DNA of 32,651 bases from an uncultured bacterium (GTDB lineage: Bacteria; Cyanobacteriota; Vampirovibrionia; Gastranaerophilales; Gastranaerophilaceae): positions 1-32,651 of the forward strand of contig CADBQW010000068.1 in NCBI GenBank assembly GCA_902796925.1, written 5' to 3'. This document shows, in pieces, positions 18,237 through 29,792 of the stretch. The notes under the pieces were generated by a model. That model made no database searches, had not been told where the DNA came from, and was given only the letters and a program-made list of their open reading frames with translations. Position 1 is the stretch's first letter. Each line of letters begins with the position of its first letter. The translations under genes and the position numbers were made by a program.

Positions 18237-18268
18237 AAAAAGACCAAATCTTTAGATTTGGTCTTTTT
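18237..18268. terminator. Bidirectional terminator between clpX and the convergent helical-repeat gene
   Basis: A perfect 14-bp stem (18237-18250 with 18255-18268) closes a TTTA loop; the core is GACCAAATC/GATTTGGTC with A-run and T-run flanks, so it can end transcription from both sides. It overlaps the stop codon (18267-18269) of the minus-strand gene. Confidence 0.92.
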
Positions 18269-19178
18269 ACTGTGTTGCAAGAATTTTTGCCAAGATCTCA
18301 GGATTTTTTGCCATTACAATTTTAGCGAATTGCTCTGTATCCATTTGTGTAATTACAATACTTAGCATATCTTTTGGCAGCTTCTCTATCATTTTTATAA
18401 TTTCTTCTTTTTCTACGACATGCATTGCCTTAACAACATCGGGTTGAAATTTATGATCGTTAATTATATTTGTATACGCACTGGGATCAAATTTTTCCAT
18501 CAACCTCTGATTTTCACGAATCATTAGGATAGTAAGGTCTTGTTTGGCAGGAACTTTAAGATTTCTCAATCCATTTTTAAAATCACCGTCATTCAGCTTT
18601 GAGATCTTTTGGAGTAATTCAGATGAAGAAGTATCGGGGGCAATTTCTTCGCCGGTAACACTTTCTAACATTTGATAAAGATATTCTTTCTGAATGAATT
18701 TCATGTTTTCAAGAATTCTTACTTTGTCCGTATTGTCATCGGTTAGAATCTTATCTAACTGTTTTTCCGGCATATAAGAAACAATTTGTTCTTTAGAAAA
18801 TAGCTCCAACACAACATCTACAAGTTGTTCCGGAGGTAATTCTTGTAACAATATCATCAACTGATCTTGAGAAAAGAAAAATAACCCTTGAAGTAAATCC
18901 TCTTTTTCCATCAGTGGTAAATATTCAACCAACTCTCTTTCGTTCATCTGTTTAAGAATTATAAGTTTATTTTCAGGATTTGCCAATTCAAAAAGTTCAA
19001 TAACAAATTTTGTATCACTCAAAACTTTTGTGGCTAATTCAATTGCAGCCTGATTACCTTGGGAAGCTTCAGCCTTTAAAATTTCTTCAGCAGTCATATT
19101 AGAATACTGCATTTGGATTTTTTCAGGCGGAATACCAAGTCGCTGTATTAAATATTCGGTGTCAATTGATAAACCCAT
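18267..19178 (-). CDS. Helical-repeat protein resembling MgtE_N/FliG modules, function unknown
   Basis: 303 residues, predicted fully helical, without signal peptide or membrane segment. From about 65 to 150 it shows successive short amphipathic helices with a Leu-Pro/acidic pattern (LVEYLPLMEKEDLLQGL, LMILLQELPPEQLVDVVLEL, IVSYMPEKQLDKIL), and again at about 240-303 (EIIKMIEKLPKDMLSIVITQ). This pattern recalls the MgtE N-domain and FliG right-handed superhelix. It is the last gene of the ZorA/ZorB-like operon, 94 nt after the 121-residue gene. By analogy with FliG and MotA it might be a cytoplasmic adaptor for that membrane complex; this is inference. GAGGG precedes the ATG. No catalytic motif is visible. 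Confidence 0.72.
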   Translation of the reverse strand: MGLSIDTEYLIQRLGIPPEKIQMQYSNMTAEEILKAEASQGNQAAIELATKVLSDTKFVIELFELANPENKLIILKQMNERELVEYLPLMEKEDLLQGLFFFSQDQLMILLQELPPEQLVDVVLELFSKEQIVSYMPEKQLDKILTDDNTDKVRILENMKFIQKEYLYQMLESVTGEEIAPDTSSSELLQKISKLNDGDFKNGLRNLKVPAKQDLTILMIRENQRLMEKFDPSAYTNIINDHKFQPDVVKAMHVVEKEEIIKMIEKLPKDMLSIVITQMDTEQFAKIVMAKNPEILAKILATQ

Positions 19179-19272
19179 AGATGCCCTCTGATATTACTCT
19201 CAAATATAATAAAAAATTTTTTAGGACTGTTTTTCAGCAAATTTCGTATTATTTACAAAATTTAACATTAAA

Positions 19273-19638
19273 TTATGAATTTTCACTGCCGGATTTTGTA
19301 TCGGCATCTTCTTTTATGACCATCTTTGTTCGATTTAATTTTTTGATTTTCCAAATTTCATTTAAAGTTGGCATAACCAAGGGTTTACACAACCATCTGG
19401 CGGCAAATTTTTCTTCCGGACCAAGACTGCCTTCCATTTTTTCGCCTGTTAAAATGTTAAATTTTGCTTCTGATATAGCAATATTGATCTTTACATGAGG
19501 AGTACTTTCCGAAACATCCATGGTTAGTTTAAGATTGTTAAATCTCTGCCAACCAAATGCCCCCGAATCTTTTGGTAAATCATTGTCAACAATAAATTCT
19601 TTTAAATTTTCTGCCATTTCATTCAGCGACTTTACCAT
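19273..19638 (-). CDS. Conserved-looking small protein in a ZorAB-like operon, function unknown
   Basis: 121 residues, soluble. An N-terminal helical part (1-25) is followed by a beta-rich middle (about 33-75: FNNLKLTMDVSESTPHVKIN, AEFNILTG-like strands) and a helical region (about 76-110: PEEKFAARWLCKPL and onward), ending in a polar tail. I recognise no family. It overlaps the end of the MotB/ZorB-like gene by 20 nt and has AAGGAG before its ATG, so it is translationally coupled and probably works with the membrane motor pair. Confidence 0.7.
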   Translation of the reverse strand: MVKSLNEMAENLKEFIVDNDLPKDSGAFGWQRFNNLKLTMDVSESTPHVKINIAISEAKFNILTGEKMEGSLGPEEKFAARWLCKPLVMPTLNEIWKIKKLNRTKMVIKEDADTKSGSENS

Positions 19639-20371
19639 TCTTAACTCCTTTTTTATTTATTGAAGGTTTTTTACTATTAAACCCTCCGGCTTGTCCGATT
19701 GCATCCATAATATCCCATTTCTTAAGTTTTAGCCTTAATTCTACTCTACGGCTTCTTGCAAAATCTTCTTTCCCGTCAACCAATACCGGTTCAGTAAAAC
19801 TCTTACCTTCTACTATAATAATTTTTATTAGCTGGTCTTTGTATTTTTTGTCGTAATTAGTTTGAAAAACATAATCAGCAACGGAATTTGCCCTCAACAA
19901 GCTCAATTGCATATTACGCAGAAATTGTTTTTCCTTTGAGCTAATCCCTGCAAACATTTGACTGTCTGTATGACCTTGAATCACTATATTTTCAATGTTT
20001 TCACTAATATTTTTATTTGAGAATATTGTATCCAAATATATCGGGATGAGTTTATCTAAATATAATTTACCCTTATTTGATAAAGTATAGCTATTAACCT
20101 CAAACAAATCTAAATCAGAAATTTTCAAATCACCTGTCATTTTGTCAACATCAACTTTGATGTTTTCTTGATTTAATTTTTCTATTAATTCTTTAGAAAC
20201 CTCAATCTGCTGTTTCTTTACCTGCATATCTTGACTTGTGAAACCCGTTATAGCGAGTACAAAAAGGGTTATAAATATAATACATAAACCCAACATCAAA
20301 TCAGCCATGGTTGTCCAAAAGATGTTGTCGGTATTAGTATTATTTTTTTTAGGTTTCAAAAAAAATGCCAT
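19619..20371 (-). CDS. MotB/ZorB-like stator subunit with OmpA-type peptidoglycan-binding domain
   Basis: 250 residues. A short basic N-terminus leads to one transmembrane helix (about 19-42) that begins FWTTMADLMLGL, with D24 at the place of the proton-carrying Asp of MotB and ZorB. A linker (about 45-85) is followed by an OmpA-like domain (about 90-218) with VIQGHTDS, a loop, LSLLRANSVADYVF and the closing FARSRRVELRL, where the SRRVE arginines match the peptidoglycan-binding signature. The ADLM membrane motif and the length fit ZorB-type proteins better than flagellar MotB. It should form a 5:2 proton-driven complex with the product of the gene upstream (29-nt gap). No nuclease or helicase gene of a Zorya defence system is adjacent. 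Confidence 0.8.
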   Translation of the reverse strand: MAFFLKPKKNNTNTDNIFWTTMADLMLGLCIIFITLFVLAITGFTSQDMQVKKQQIEVSKELIEKLNQENIKVDVDKMTGDLKISDLDLFEVNSYTLSNKGKLYLDKLIPIYLDTIFSNKNISENIENIVIQGHTDSQMFAGISSKEKQFLRNMQLSLLRANSVADYVFQTNYDKKYKDQLIKIIIVEGKSFTEPVLVDGKEDFARSRRVELRLKLKKWDIMDAIGQAGGFNSKKPSINKKGVKNGKVAE

Positions 20372-20400
20372 TGAAATTATTATTCCCCATTTTATTGTTT

Positions 20401-21312
20401 TTAAAACAGACTATCCACATCGTCATTTCCGCTTAGGCTAGAAAATCTGTCTTTTAAATTTTTATTCAATTGATTTAATCCGAAAATTAAATTCTCGAGA
20501 TACGGAACTAAATTGGTAGTGATACCGGAATTAAATGCGGTTTTAACATTGTCAGGCATAGCCGTTATCAAGTTTGAAATAGAGTTGTTTTGAATTTTTG
20601 TCTCCTTAATAAGTTCCAATAAAAATTTCTCTGATGTAATATTGTCAAACAAATTGGAAATAGTGTTTTCCAAATTAGACATTGGAATTCGACACAAAAA
20701 ATTGTGAGCAATTCTCTCAAAGATAATAAATATAAGAGACGACCCAACTGCAATAACTGAAACTAAAGCCGCAATCTGCATTGAAGCCATCAGACCGGAC
20801 ATAGAATTAACAGTAGCCTCCTGACTTGATAGATCAACTCTGCCAAAAGCTATTGCTATATTCAAAAAAGTAAACAAAGGACCACAGCCTGTAAGAATAG
20901 TTGCTACCGATTGTAGAAATTTGTTGTTAAATTTGTTGTATACAAGATTATCTTCATTAAAAAAATAGAGTGGATCGACAGTGGTTTGAACTGTCTGAAT
21001 GTTAGAAGATAAATTTTTGTATGTTAAGTCATTATCTTTATTTTTTAACGCAATTGATTCTGAAAAAACCAATGTATTCTTAAAATCAGACCACGTTGAC
21101 ATGACATATGGATTATTACTCATCCACTCATCTATCTCTTTGAACCTGAAACTCAAATCATTTTTGTTAAAGTTTAACAAAAACATATTTATTAATTTTA
21201 TATTTCCGGAAACTTTTAGATAATTTTTTGCACAATACAACACCGAAAGTATAAAAAAGCAAACCACTATCATAATTGGTACATCATGTATTAATTTATA
21301 AATTATACTCAT
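20401..21312 (-). CDS. MotA/TolQ/ExbB-family, ZorA-like stator subunit
   Basis: 303 residues with three membrane helices: about 11-28, 134-156 and 177-198. Between helix 1 and 2 is a cytoplasmic region containing DPLYFFNEDNLVYNKFNNKF. The second helix has SVATILTGCGPLFTFLNIAI, which matches the Gly-rich pore segment of the MotA/ExbB family and especially the ZorA-type version. A short cytoplasmic C-terminal tail (about 200-303) follows, much shorter than the several-hundred-residue tail of canonical ZorA. AGGAAGG-rich ribosome site and a good promoter lie upstream. First gene of a four-gene operon. Function of the complex is unknown; a proton- or sodium-driven motor is inferred from family. 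Confidence 0.78.
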   Translation of the reverse strand: MSIIYKLIHDVPIMIVVCFFILSVLYCAKNYLKVSGNIKLINMFLLNFNKNDLSFRFKEIDEWMSNNPYVMSTWSDFKNTLVFSESIALKNKDNDLTYKNLSSNIQTVQTTVDPLYFFNEDNLVYNKFNNKFLQSVATILTGCGPLFTFLNIAIAFGRVDLSSQEATVNSMSGLMASMQIAALVSVIAVGSSLIFIIFERIAHNFLCRIPMSNLENTISNLFDNITSEKFLLELIKETKIQNNSISNLITAMPDNVKTAFNSGITTNLVPYLENLIFGLNQLNKNLKDRFSSLSGNDDVDSLF

Positions 21313-21480: not shown

Positions 21481-22044
21481 CTATATTTTATCTTTATTTA
21501 CTTTTTGGGCACACTCTAACATTGCATCAATTAGGGTTGAATTTCCATAAATATCCATTCCGTTCAAGCTTAAAACTTGTTTTATTCTTTCTGACCAGAT
21601 ATTAAATATTTCATCTTTTGACATCCCCAGTATTTGTCCAATCATATTAAGTTGTTTATAATCTATAGGGAGAGGGAGAGCTCCTCTGAGGATATCAACC
21701 ATTTCTAATCTTTTATTACGAGGGAATGCCTTTAGAAAGTTTACTGTTGACATTTTTTTTGATTTGAGAATACCCTTTATCATTTCTACATTTTTATCAA
21801 TAAGGATTGGTTCTTGCGGAATTTTGTATTCTTCAAAATTTTCCGGTTTTACCTCCATGACAGTGGCTATTCTTTCAAGGGTAACGGTTCTCGTTGAAAA
21901 CGGCATAGCATTATCTATCAAATTGTAAACATAAGAAAGAGTTACCCCTATCATTTGCGCAAAATCTTTTTTATGTAATCCATTTCTTTCTAAAAATTGT
22001 TCAACCATTTGTGAACTTGTAGTTTTTATAATTTGTTTTGCCAT
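21481..22044 (-). CDS. XRE-type transcriptional regulator with two helix-turn-helix regions
   Basis: 187 residues. The first Cro/CI-type HTH (about 10-65) has KKDFAQMIGVTLSYVYNLID and TLERIATVMEVKPENFEEY. A second, weaker HTH-like unit (about 84-150) has LNMIGQILGMSKDEIFNIW. No sensor domain is visible. GAGGAT precedes the ATG. A perfect inverted repeat ATCTGA-CT-TCAGAT (22061-22074) lies 17 nt upstream and could be its own operator. It is divergent from pth and lies 168 bp upstream of the ZorA-like gene on the same strand, so it may control that operon. Confidence 0.8.
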   Translation of the reverse strand: MAKQIIKTTSSQMVEQFLERNGLHKKDFAQMIGVTLSYVYNLIDNAMPFSTRTVTLERIATVMEVKPENFEEYKIPQEPILIDKNVEMIKGILKSKKMSTVNFLKAFPRNKRLEMVDILRGALPLPIDYKQLNMIGQILGMSKDEIFNIWSERIKQVLSLNGMDIYGNSTLIDAMLECAQKVNKDKI

Positions 22045-26113: not shown

Positions 26114-26899
26114 TTATATTATATTTGCAAAAGATAAAAAATATTGGTTTATAACATTGATAATCATTGGCATAATCCATATAAGTATTGCGGCGCCAAG
26201 TACAGGTTTAAACAAAAAACTCAATTGAAAAACATTTACCTGCGGAGCGGTTTTAGAAATTACACCAAGAATAATATCTTGTCCTAACGTTGCAAGCAAA
26301 ATTGGAGAGGCTACCTGGAGCCCCATATACAAAACATTTGAAGTTATTTTAACAAGATAATCCAGATTTATAATTTGTTCCAAAGGCAAAGTTACTGCTC
26401 CGAGAGGAAAAATTTCTATACTCTTGACAAATGCGTTAAACATCCAATATATTCCGCCAATTTCTATAAAAATTAAAACGCCGATTACCGAAAATAAATT
26501 TTGCATTATAGAAACTTGAGTTGATGTCGAAGGATCTAACACCATCGCAGAAGAAAGTCCCATCTGCATATTTATCATATCAGCCCCGGCATCAACAGCA
26601 AGGAGAATAACCCTTGCAATAAAACCTATTATCGCCCCAACAACATAATTTAACAGCAGTGACAATACAAATGAACTTTCTATAATTTTTACATCTGCAT
26701 GAATTAACGGTGTAATAGCAATAGTTAAGAGAAGCGCAAGGGAAAGTTTAACCATACCGGGAATATCTTTTCTGCTAAACACCGGTGCAGCCCGCATAAA
26801 TCCAAGTAAACGAACAAATATGAATGTTCCGGCCGCAAGATTTACGCTGAACATGGGAAAAAGTTTTGCCATTTCATTTAACATTGACTGCAAATCCAT
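26114..26899 (-). CDS. fliR: Flagellar export gate protein FliR
   Basis: 261 residues, the usual FliR length, with about six hydrophobic segments. FliR hallmarks: AAGTFIFVRLLGFMRAAPVF near the N-terminus, then VDAGADMINMQMGLSSAMVL followed by DPSTSTQ, a pattern in all FliR/SctT proteins. FliR joins FliP and FliQ in the export gate of the flagellar type III system. GGAGG lies 7 nt before the ATG. Its ATG overlaps the stop of a 43-codon ORF (TGATG). It is the last gene of the block; flhB and flhA, often next to fliR, are not here. Confidence 0.96.
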   Translation of the reverse strand: MDLQSMLNEMAKLFPMFSVNLAAGTFIFVRLLGFMRAAPVFSRKDIPGMVKLSLALLLTIAITPLIHADVKIIESSFVLSLLLNYVVGAIIGFIARVILLAVDAGADMINMQMGLSSAMVLDPSTSTQVSIMQNLFSVIGVLIFIEIGGIYWMFNAFVKSIEIFPLGAVTLPLEQIINLDYLVKITSNVLYMGLQVASPILLATLGQDIILGVISKTAPQVNVFQLSFLFKPVLGAAILIWIMPMIINVINQYFLSFANII

Positions 26900-27030
26900 C
26901 AGCGAACCTCCAAATTTAAGAAAAAGGCTAAGTCTTCCCGCCTGAAAAGCAGATGGGTTGACTTAACCGTCATATCAAACTCAACGGGGTTTGCTATAAA
27001 AATTTTATTTTCAAACTTTTTATCTACCAT
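26899..27030 (-). CDS. 43-residue small ORF between fliQ and fliR
   Basis: ATG at 27030, 5 nt after the fliQ stop; its TGA shares bases with the fliR ATG (TGATG). The peptide begins MVDKKFENKIFIANPVEFDM and ends LAFFLNLEVR; it is polar with an amphipathic C-terminal half, no membrane helix. The exact fit into the gap, the stop-start overlap, and a fliR ribosome site inside its last codons argue for real, coupled translation. Its own Shine-Dalgarno is weak (GGGGC, within the fliQ end). I recognise no homologue. An alternative is that this is just an open leader that couples fliQ and fliR. Confidence 0.6.
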   Translation of the reverse strand: MVDKKFENKIFIANPVEFDMTVKSTHLLFRREDLAFFLNLEVR

Positions 27031-27035
27031 CAATT

Positions 27036-27524
27036 CTATTGCCCCATAATTGTTTTACGTTCAACAAAATCAGGTTGTGGAGTTGGGGTTCCTCTATTAG
27101 GAAGATATTGAATACGTTCTTTGCCGTCAAGATATGGAACTTTGTTAGGATGTTTCATTATATAATTTATAGAATCTATATTTTTGAATTGATCTTTCAT
27201 TTCCCCTTCAAATGGTGTTGTATACTTGTAATAATCGGAAGGTAGAACGTATGAATCATTTTTTGAGATAAAATTAAATGCTATCACCATGCCTTCATTA
27301 AAAAATCCTCTCAAAAGATTTATAAATCCCATTCCTCCAATTACTATAATCAAGAAAACTCCAAGGATTTTTGGTGCGGCGGCAATAGTCTGTTCTTGTA
27401 CCTGTGTCACAGCTTGCAAAATCCCAATTACAAGTCCTATACCTGCTGCCACAAGTACACAAGGCATAGATATTGCAAGCATTATTAAAAATCCTCTCGC
27501 TAAATATTCAACTAAAGCTTCCAT
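27036..27524 (-). CDS. fliQ: Flagellar export gate protein FliQ with a long C-terminal extension
   Basis: 162 residues against about 89 for ordinary FliQ. Residues 1-88 are a normal FliQ with two membrane helices and the family core GLVIGILQAVTQVQEQTIAA followed by APKILGVFL. Residues 89-162 are an added hydrophilic, Tyr/Pro-rich tail (YVLPSDYYKYTTPFEG; PNRGTPTPQPDFVERK) with no recognised domain. FliQ takes four copies in the export gate, so the tail would be displayed four times. AGAGGT precedes the ATG, 15 nt after the fliP stop. The stop is followed after 5 nt by the 43-codon ORF. Confidence 0.93.
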   Translation of the reverse strand: MEALVEYLARGFLIMLAISMPCVLVAAGIGLVIGILQAVTQVQEQTIAAAPKILGVFLIIVIGGMGFINLLRGFFNEGMVIAFNFISKNDSYVLPSDYYKYTTPFEGEMKDQFKNIDSINYIMKHPNKVPYLDGKERIQYLPNRGTPTPQPDFVERKTIMGQ

Positions 27525-27539
27525 ATTTAAACCTCTTTT

Positions 27540-28181
27540 TTAGTTATAACTTGAAACCAATCCTTGTACTATCAGCGCCCAACCATCTACGGCAATAAAT
27601 ATTAGAAGTTTGAAAGGCAATGAAATAATCGTAGGAGATAACATAAACATACCCAAAGCAAGCAAAATATTTGCAACAACAAGATCAAGTACAATAAATG
27701 GTACGAAAATAATAAATCCTATTTCGAAAGCCGTTTTAAGTTCACTCACAATAAATGCCGGTGCGACTTCCCAGACTGTAATTTCCTCCGGACTGGTCGG
27801 CGGAGTTTTATGCACAAGCTCTACAAAAAATTGTAAATCACTTTCTCTCGTCTGTTTCATCATAAACTCTTTTAACGGTTTAGAGCCTTCTTCCAGAGCA
27901 AGTACGATGTTTTGATTCTTCTGATACGGAACGGAGCCCATATCATACATTTTTTGAAATGTACCGCCCATTGTGTAAAATGTAAGGATCATTGATAATC
28001 CAATGATTACTATTGAAGGCGGAACTTGCTGTGTTCCCATAGCAGTTTTCAGCATAGAAAATACGATAACAAACCTTAAAAAGCTAGTCATACAGCAAAA
28101 TACCAACGGTAACAATGAAAATACCGTCATTAATATCAACATCTGTAGAATTGGATTTAAATCTTTTACTATAGCATCCAT
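27540..28181 (-). CDS. fliP: Flagellar export gate protein FliP
   Basis: 213 residues with four membrane helices and a large soluble insert between helices 2 and 3. Signature: LPLVFCCMTSFLRFVIVFSM followed by LKTAMGTQQVPP; in the insert KPLKEFMMKQTRESDLQFFV, typical of flagellar FliP; then PAFIVSELKTAFEIGFIIFV. The N-terminus lacks the cleaved signal peptide found in enterobacterial FliP. Five copies form the gate with FliQ and FliR. AAGGAAT precedes the ATG; fliO lies 15 nt upstream. Confidence 0.97.
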   Translation of the reverse strand: MDAIVKDLNPILQMLILMTVFSLLPLVFCCMTSFLRFVIVFSMLKTAMGTQQVPPSIVIIGLSMILTFYTMGGTFQKMYDMGSVPYQKNQNIVLALEEGSKPLKEFMMKQTRESDLQFFVELVHKTPPTSPEEITVWEVAPAFIVSELKTAFEIGFIIFVPFIVLDLVVANILLALGMFMLSPTIISLPFKLLIFIAVDGWALIVQGLVSSYN

Positions 28182-28196
28182 TATATTTTTATTCCT

Positions 28197-28586
28197 TTAT
28201 TTTTGTAAATCCAGTTTTTTTGCAAACTTTCTAATAGCAGCATTCGTTTTTTCTGAATCAATTACGCTCCGTATCTTTGGAAGATCTTCTGTATTACCGG
28301 GTGTATAAAAATCACTCTCACTATATGAACTATTTTTATTTTCCAGTCTTGACAAAAGTGTTGTTCTATCTGAATCTGAAGCTATTAAAAATTTTTCATT
28401 ACCGGCACGAACAACAAAAAGCTGTTTTCTTGGTGCAAGATTCAGGGCATCTTCAATTTTAAGGAAATTCGTTTTTGACGAAACCTGAGTATTTATGGCG
28501 AATTTTTTATATACAAACAAGGCAAGAAAAATTAATCCTACCATTGCAATTGTGTATACGATAAAATTTGCAAAATATGCTCCCAT
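28197..28586 (-). CDS. fliO: FliO-like flagellar assembly protein
   Basis: 129 residues. One transmembrane helix (about 8-27: IVYTIAMVGLIFLALFVY) followed by a cytoplasmic domain (about 42-75) with IEDALNLAPRKQLFVVRAG and EKFLIASDSD, the short conserved core of FliO. FliO chaperones assembly of the FliP-FliR complex. FliO is specific to flagella and absent from injectisomes, so this block is flagellar. It starts 3 nt after the stop of the SpoA-domain gene (its ribosome site GAGG lies inside that gene), and fliP follows 15 nt later. Confidence 0.82.
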   Translation of the reverse strand: MGAYFANFIVYTIAMVGLIFLALFVYKKFAINTQVSSKTNFLKIEDALNLAPRKQLFVVRAGNEKFLIASDSDRTTLLSRLENKNSSYSESDFYTPGNTEDLPKIRSVIDSEKTNAAIRKFAKKLDLQK

Positions 28587-28589
28587 TTT

Positions 28590-29792
28590 TTATATATCCT
28601 CATCTTCAAGTTCAAAGTCGCTGTAGTCAAAATCATCTTCGTCATCTTCAGATTGTTCTTGTTTGTCAGAAGAATCATCTTCTTGATTGTCATATTCTTC
28701 CTCATATTCATCTTCCGGAATATCTTTATCATATTCAGATTCTTCTTCTACTTTTGTATCTTGCGGTGTATTTTTATTCGAATCACCTTCGGCCAAGACC
28801 TCTTTTATTTTGACCCCGTATCTGTCATTTATAATTACGAGCTCTCCTTTTGCAATAGGTTTATTTTCTACGCTAAGAGTTACTTGATTGTCATAAATTG
28901 AAGTTAAATCCACAACTGTTCCGGACTCAATTGACTTTAACTCTCCCAATGTTATTTTGACAGATTCAAATTTTGCATCAATTTCAACTTCTATACTATC
29001 CCAAAGGTTTACATTATCCGCACCCATGTTATAAGCCTCCTTATTATTATCAAATGGCATTACCAAACCCATATTAGGTTTTACATTTACTATATTTTCC
29101 CAATCATTGTAGTTTATCTCAAACTTATTCAAATCACTATTTTCAAAGACAACGATATCATCATTTTCAATATTTTTTAAATCGTACAGTGAGAATTTTG
29201 TTGAACCAACTTTTATGGTTACATTTATCATACTGTTTGCGAAGGAATCAGAATAATCCCGTTGACCTTCCGAAATTGTATTATTGAGTGTCAAAAGAAC
29301 CTGAGGTATTGTTACAATAAATTTCCCGCATTCACCGGAAGTATCATCTTTTATAAGGAAAGTTAGGTTAATTACATCAAAATTTGTTCTTGTAACCGTC
29401 GGAGGTGGAGAAGTTAAAACTTTTGAAAATGCATTATACAAAAAGTCATTATAAGAAGTTATTACTTTTGCCTCCAAAGTACTCATCTTATCAAAATTGA
29501 ATTTTCGATTAACTCTCCCCAGTGCAAAATCAAGAATTATACTCACAGCTTTGTCTGATAACCTAAAAAAGATATCAAACAATTCTGTGATTTTTACCTT
29601 CGTCACGAAGTATGATTTTTTATCCATAAGGGGATTACTATTTTTACTTATCCCTAACAATACAACACTCAAACCCTCCGAAAAGAATTCCTTTGTTGCC
29701 TCATTTATAGGCACAAGAAAACTGTTCGAAAGTTTTTCGTAATTCTGACATAGATATGTGTAGTCTTTCTGATTAGTTATTTCAGATTTCAT
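28590..29792 (-). CDS. Flagellar C-ring protein with two SpoA (FliM/FliN-type) domains and an acidic tail
   Basis: 400 residues. The N-terminal half (about 20-175) has the look of a FliM/FliY/SctQ middle domain (KMSTLEAKVITSYNDFLYNA; GECGKFIVTIPQVLL). Two SpoA domains follow: about 186-240 (INVTIKVGSTKFSLYDLKNI) and about 264-332 (IEVEIDAKFESVKITLGELK then the IAKGELVIINDRYGVKI end). Residues 348-400 form an Asp/Glu-rich tail. Tandem SpoA in one protein is the design of injectisome SctQ; flagella usually split it into FliM and FliN. No N-terminal CheY-binding EIDALL-type motif is visible. First gene of the fliO-fliP-fliQ-orf43-fliR operon; ribosome site weak (GGGA). Confidence 0.82.
   Translation of the reverse strand: MKSEITNQKDYTYLCQNYEKLSNSFLVPINEATKEFFSEGLSVVLLGISKNSNPLMDKKSYFVTKVKITELFDIFFRLSDKAVSIILDFALGRVNRKFNFDKMSTLEAKVITSYNDFLYNAFSKVLTSPPPTVTRTNFDVINLTFLIKDDTSGECGKFIVTIPQVLLTLNNTISEGQRDYSDSFANSMINVTIKVGSTKFSLYDLKNIENDDIVVFENSDLNKFEINYNDWENIVNVKPNMGLVMPFDNNKEAYNMGADNVNLWDSIEVEIDAKFESVKITLGELKSIESGTVVDLTSIYDNQVTLSVENKPIAKGELVIINDRYGVKIKEVLAEGDSNKNTPQDTKVEEESEYDKDIPEDEYEEEYDNQEDDSSDKQEQSEDDEDDFDYSDFELEDEDI

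Follow-up and report, generated by a model that had tools for sequence, protein, structure and literature searches.

A tail-less ZorA/ZorB-type motor pair with a probable non-defence envelope function in a Gastranaerophilales-like family

The window analysed here (32,651 bp) is one entire contig of a draft genome that comprises 1.57 Mb in 123 contigs. Four ORFs are present on its minus strand, with the lengths of 303, 250, 121 and 303 aa that a sequence-only reading of this DNA had given: zorA' (20401..21312), zorB' (19619..20371), an ORF for a 121-aa DUF4160-like protein (19273..19638) and a gene for a 303-aa MgtE_N-type helical repeat protein (18267..19178). The zorA' and zorB' genes are separated by 29 nt, and the 250-aa zorB' ORF overlaps the 121-aa ORF by 20 nt (19619-19638). 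The latter lies 94 nt from the MgtE_N-type gene, and the tight order proposed for all four genes is thus limited to the first three. The protein features that had been read from the sequence were confirmed. ZorA' contains three hydrophobic segments (residues 7-25, 136-154 and 180-198), in agreement with the three helices assigned to it. ZorB' contains a single one, which starts at the proposed membrane aspartate D24, a residue that is invariant in 29 homologs, and its C-terminus matches Pfam OmpA (5e-8). The fourth protein, described as a helical-repeat protein, matches Pfam MgtE_N in three stretches (2.4e-8). The zorA'/zorB' pair is well beyond chance, since dozens of genomes contain homologs that are 33-76% identical. 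Upstream of the pair, positions 21481-22044 encode a Cro/C1-type HTH protein apparently composed of two HTH-like halves; this gene is not kept beside the pair in close relatives.

The family to which the motor pair belongs was delineated with profiles, predicted structure and phylogeny. ZorA' matched the N-terminal part of the PADLOC ZorA1 model (5e-18), and ZorB' matched PADLOC ZorB1 (6e-52), a match from which a single-gene defence annotation of 19619-20371 could mislabel a core motor as Zorya. The NCBIfam models ZorA_2 (8e-17; 61.4 bits against a curated cut-off of 100) and ZorB1 (63.2 bits against a curated cut-off of 400) also matched the respective proteins, and Pfam MotA_ExbB did not match ZorA'. 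When a profile of 28 ZorA' homologs was compared with PDB sequences, the significant matches were to ZorA only (7e-28), and no MotA, TolQ or ExbB chain appeared up to E = 10. The corresponding ZorB' profile matched type II ZorB (8vvi, 3.5e-25), type I ZorB (8qyd, 2e-19) and MotB (1e-8). A Foldseek search with the predicted ZorA' monomer (mean pLDDT 75) gave ZorA for all of the top six matches (best 3.5e-10), followed by TolQ at 0.07. In a tree that took in MotA, TolQ-like, ZorA1 and ZorA2 sequences of the same class, the short ZorA' proteins grouped in a single clade (100/100), which a split supported at 98/96 places with the Zorya sequences; the tree has long branches, and it does not resolve the order inside the Zorya side. 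Because profiles, PDB sequences, fold and tree all point the same way, we assign the pair, as judged from these comparisons, to the 5:2 motors of the ZorA/ZorB branch and not to MotAB, ExbBD or TolQR. The ZorA/ZorB-type identity that had been suggested is thereby upheld, and setting a flagellar MotAB or ExbBD placement against it by profile led to the Zorya placement.

Residues expected at the core of such a motor are intact. The presumed ion-site residues, D24 of ZorB' and T148 and S185 of ZorA', are invariant in the family, and T148 and S185 are the counterparts of T147 and S184 in the ZorA chain of 8qyd, as counted in the profile alignment. A Ser/Thr ring around the aspartate has been reported for both ZorAB and MotAB (PMC11890865). 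Among 29 ZorB' homologs, positions H134, T135, L156, R160 and R208/R209 show little or no variation, and by motif they would correspond to ZorB residues that are required for peptidoglycan binding (PMC11890865). In the profile, homology to true type I ZorA extends to about position 293 of 301; long ZorA proteins run ∼250-440 residues beyond that point, and full-length members of the short clade measure 292-309 aa. Homology to long ZorA thus stops near residue 290, which bears out the earlier remark that the long ZorA tail is missing. The short proteins end instead in a variable linker, predicted with low confidence, and a conserved C-terminus, which reads DDVDSLF in the window and DxVD[DE]LF as the family motif. 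When 1183 neighbourhood ORFs with a minimum length of 100 aa were screened for this D-x-V-D-[DE]-L-F end, 90 carried it, every one of them matching zorA' in size. A conserved end behind a variable linker would be typical of a docking peptide. The motif is reminiscent of the ends by which CheZ and FliM bind CheY; within four regions around the flagellar fliP of relatives, a comparable motif was found at no ORF start.

Comparison with Zorya systems shows both how close the pair stands to them and where it departs. Zorya type I (PDB 8qyd, 8vvn) shares with it the three-TM ZorA head, the ion-site Thr/Ser, a ZorB aspartate of the D24 type and the OmpA anchor, and provides the best profile and fold match, with homology to about residue 290 of ZorA. 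Its ZorA, however, is 540-730 aa long and carries a cytoplasmic tail, whereas ZorA' has 303 aa and no tail; it includes ZorC and ZorD, both of which the short pair lacks; it is a cassette, whereas the pair appears to be a vertically inherited core element; and the DxVD[DE]LF end is unique to ZorA'. In addition, two acidic residues of type I were mutated as a calcium site in 8qyh, and the position aligned with one of the two, E89, is mostly Asn in ZorA'. Type II is the source of the ZorB that the ZorB' profile scores best (8vvi, 3.5e-25), but a ZorE-type gene was not seen beside zorA'/zorB'. A type II-like locus of the same order (L238) consists of a 400-aa ZorA, ZorB and a 274-aa third gene; this ZorA is devoid of the long TM1-TM2 segment but keeps the long tail.

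Genuine type I loci occur in the same class, in which a long ZorA (542-733 aa) and ZorB are accompanied by ZorC, an EH_Signature protein, and ZorD, an SNF2 helicase; Pfam confirms them in L231 and L236, and L232 and L233 show the same gene layout. One genome (G044) contains a complete long type I locus together with the short pair, and in another (G277) a short ZorA occurs alongside one of 588 aa. EH_Signature was detected in only one of 59 genomes, G044, where it lies beside the separate long ZorA. This detection indicates that the search would have seen ZorC elsewhere; the profile search did not find EH_Signature in the window's own genome. Neither ZorC/ZorD nor ZorE or ZorF/ZorG was found beside the pair in the neighbourhoods examined, ZorD, ZorE, ZorF and ZorG being judged from those neighbourhoods. 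This agrees with the earlier view that the known effectors do not accompany the pair. Our literature search found no open-access paper covering both Zorya and Gastranaerophilales.

The sequence-only reading had further proposed that the two neighbouring genes replace the known effectors, which was not borne out. The MgtE_N-type protein was found in 51 of 59 genomes, whether the motor was present or not, and elsewhere its gene either lies on a different contig or is separated from the motor by 8 kb or more. Its candidacy as a FliG-like rotor partner was rejected, since the gene is unlinked elsewhere and FliG is missing from the matches of its profile to PDB. The 303-aa protein is a chance neighbour outside the system. 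Of 31 homologs of the 121-aa protein, 6 gave weak Pfam DUF4160 matches (best 5e-4), and the family is often duplicated. It is linked to the pair in 72 of 81 close loci, which represent a sub-lineage; among 28 motor-bearing family genomes it lies near the pair in 12, elsewhere in 5, and is absent from 11. A confident small fold was predicted for the 121-aa protein, and its model gave no significant fold match in PDB. Being DUF4160-like, loosely linked and without such a match, it was discarded as a replacement effector; it is a dispensable neighbour and not an obligate partner. Of the two genes expected to travel with the pair, therefore, the 303-aa gene does not do so elsewhere and the 121-aa gene does so in part, within one sub-lineage. 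The gene order in close relatives is zorA'-zorB'-DUF711/PFL-121-aa family, with the DUF711/PFL gene directly after zorB' in 70 of 81 close loci; L065, L066, L079 and most of L112-L191 show this gene between zorB' and the 121-aa family. No DUF711 gene was detectable in the window's own genome, which excludes DUF711/PFL as an obligate partner, although the gene order had made it a candidate for a fixed one. The same absence would explain why the 121-aa ORF abuts and overlaps zorB' here.

The pair itself is distributed like a core element. In a sample of 59 genomes the short ZorA' was present in 28 of 36 genomes of the family and, outside it, in 2 of 23. When the family was sampled evenly, it was present in 70 of 97 genomes and in 29 of 41 genera, with one mixed genus, and a phylum sample gave 136 matches within the family against two weak, longer ones outside it. 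Twelve of the 41 genera do not have the pair, and it is therefore not essential to the family. The zorB' gene adjoins zorA' in all 29 loci in which the B gene was readable, the thirtieth ending at a contig edge, and in 81 of 81 close loci, although these are not mutually independent, the 80 loci from the genome collection all being close relatives. In 70 family genomes zorA' is open and of near-constant length. The flanking genes are ordinary and change, e.g. uvrC-like and hemW-like genes. Pairwise ZorA' distances correlate with the distances of the MgtE_N-type protein, whose gene is unlinked (Spearman 0.80, 0/2000 permutations), and in the tree of that protein the genomes lacking zorA' group together. 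Together with the distribution by genus, these comparisons strongly indicate that zorA' has been inherited vertically, after an ancient gain or with ancient losses, and is not part of a mobile defence cassette. Close copies (61-76% identity) also occur in records titled Clostridiaceae (L112), Fusobacterium sp. CAG:439 (L124) and Brachyspira sp. (L185), which are probably mislabelled Gastranaerophilales contigs.

Other 5:2 motors resemble the pair in part. MotAB likewise has a B subunit with an OmpA domain and a membrane aspartate, but MotA has four TM helices where ZorA' has three, and the MotA profile does not match ZorA'. TolQR/ExbBD has a three-TM A subunit, and the same 5:2 architecture would be expected; here, however, the B subunit bears an OmpA-type peptidoglycan domain, the profile match is not significant, and the Foldseek E value is about 0.07 as against 1e-10 for ZorA. 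The own genome also contains a separate set made up of one ExbB gene, two for ExbD and one TonB-like gene, ExbD and TonB having been identified by eye, and the ExbBD/TonB role is thus already filled. A further motor-type operon, one that differs from Zorya as well as from the short pair, was observed in L237 (5150-8283), encoding a 506-aa MotA/ExbB-like protein, a 219-aa OmpA-type B subunit and a 310-aa protein. With regard to flagellar genes, positions 26114-29792 of the window encode FliR, FliQ, FliP, FliO and a two-SPOA (FliM/FliN-type) protein, and the own genome has neither MotA nor a second FliP. Almost every genome of the order has FliP of this short type (a FliP was found in 58 of 59), and a longer type accompanies extra MotA-type genes; this makes two FliP lineages, one of them apparently independent of motility.

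These flagellar genes in the window and the lack of MotA in the same genome might suggest that the pair is the flagellar stator of the lineage. We consider this very unlikely. Flagellar FliP together with MotA was found in 15 of 36 family genomes, and zorA' is present in 12 of these 15 and in 16 of the 21 others. Since its distribution shows no association with FliP/MotA, the pair is independent of flagella and is not a flagellar stator, and the tree and the profiles exclude MotA as well. A motor for surface motility or pili, gliding-like or coupled to type IV pili, is less easily dismissed but still improbable. Gliding in other phyla is powered by ion-driven 5:2 motors. The own genome encodes a CheY-like single-domain protein next to a PilB/GspE-like ATPase gene (identified by eye), and type IV pilus genes are present in a relative (PMC5877343). 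Against this, gliding or pilus genes were not recognised beside the pair in the neighbourhoods examined. That the locus is the decaying remnant of a Zorya system, as the missing tail and effectors could be taken to mean, is hardly credible, since the 70 family copies are open and of near-constant length and the ion-site, anchor and C-terminal residues are conserved.

The earlier reading had left the choice between a new Zorya-like defence variant and a housekeeping motor, and the evidence favours the latter. In a defence variant, the tail-less motor would sense envelope damage during infection and act through remote effectors or ion leakage. All of the closest relatives are indeed Zorya proteins, the PADLOC ZorB1 match is strong, the peptidoglycan-binding residues are retained, the DUF4160-like neighbour of one sub-lineage could be a toxin-antitoxin-like gene, and the core distribution is compatible with a fixed immune function whose effectors are at another place. 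However, in the Zorya systems tested, the ZorA tail and every component are required for defence (PMC11890865), and ZorAB alone is insufficient (PMC8565338). Moreover, the pair is not patchy inside genera and seems to be inherited vertically, its own genome has no ZorC, no effector-like neighbour was seen in the neighbourhoods examined, and in G044 the short pair coexists with a complete, separate Zorya I. We therefore regard a defence variant as possible but unlikely. Given these requirements of Zorya defence, we favour, with a probability of roughly 0.6, a tail-less 5:2 motor of the ZorAB branch that has a core, non-defence envelope function in this Gastranaerophilales-like family.

In such a motor, five ZorA' subunits would encircle two ZorB' helices, and the OmpA domain of ZorB' would anchor it to the peptidoglycan. 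Ions crossing the site formed by ZorB' D24 and ZorA' T148-S185 would turn the ZorA' pentamer around ZorB'. The output would then pass not through a long tail but through a short C-terminal stub carrying five copies of the DxVD[DE]LF end, which may dock a soluble protein whose gene lies elsewhere in the genome, a response regulator being one candidate. For this more specific proposal, a housekeeping branch of a defence-motor family in which a tail-less ZorAB, fixed and vertical in one family, rotates a soluble partner via its C-terminal peptide, we judge the chances to be evenly balanced.

Zorya motors have so far been regarded as defence machines whose tail relays a signal to DNA-acting effectors. 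A fixed branch devoid of tail and effectors would be a natural separation of the motor from its immune output, and it carries the warning that defence finders can call such pairs Zorya parts. If the proposal is correct, tail-less ZorAB would be either a non-immune ancestor of the Zorya motors or a domesticated descendant of them, and the branch offers a way to ask in which direction evolution went, from housekeeping motors to defence motors or the reverse. For the family studied here, the results suggest that this type of motor also does an ordinary job in the envelope.
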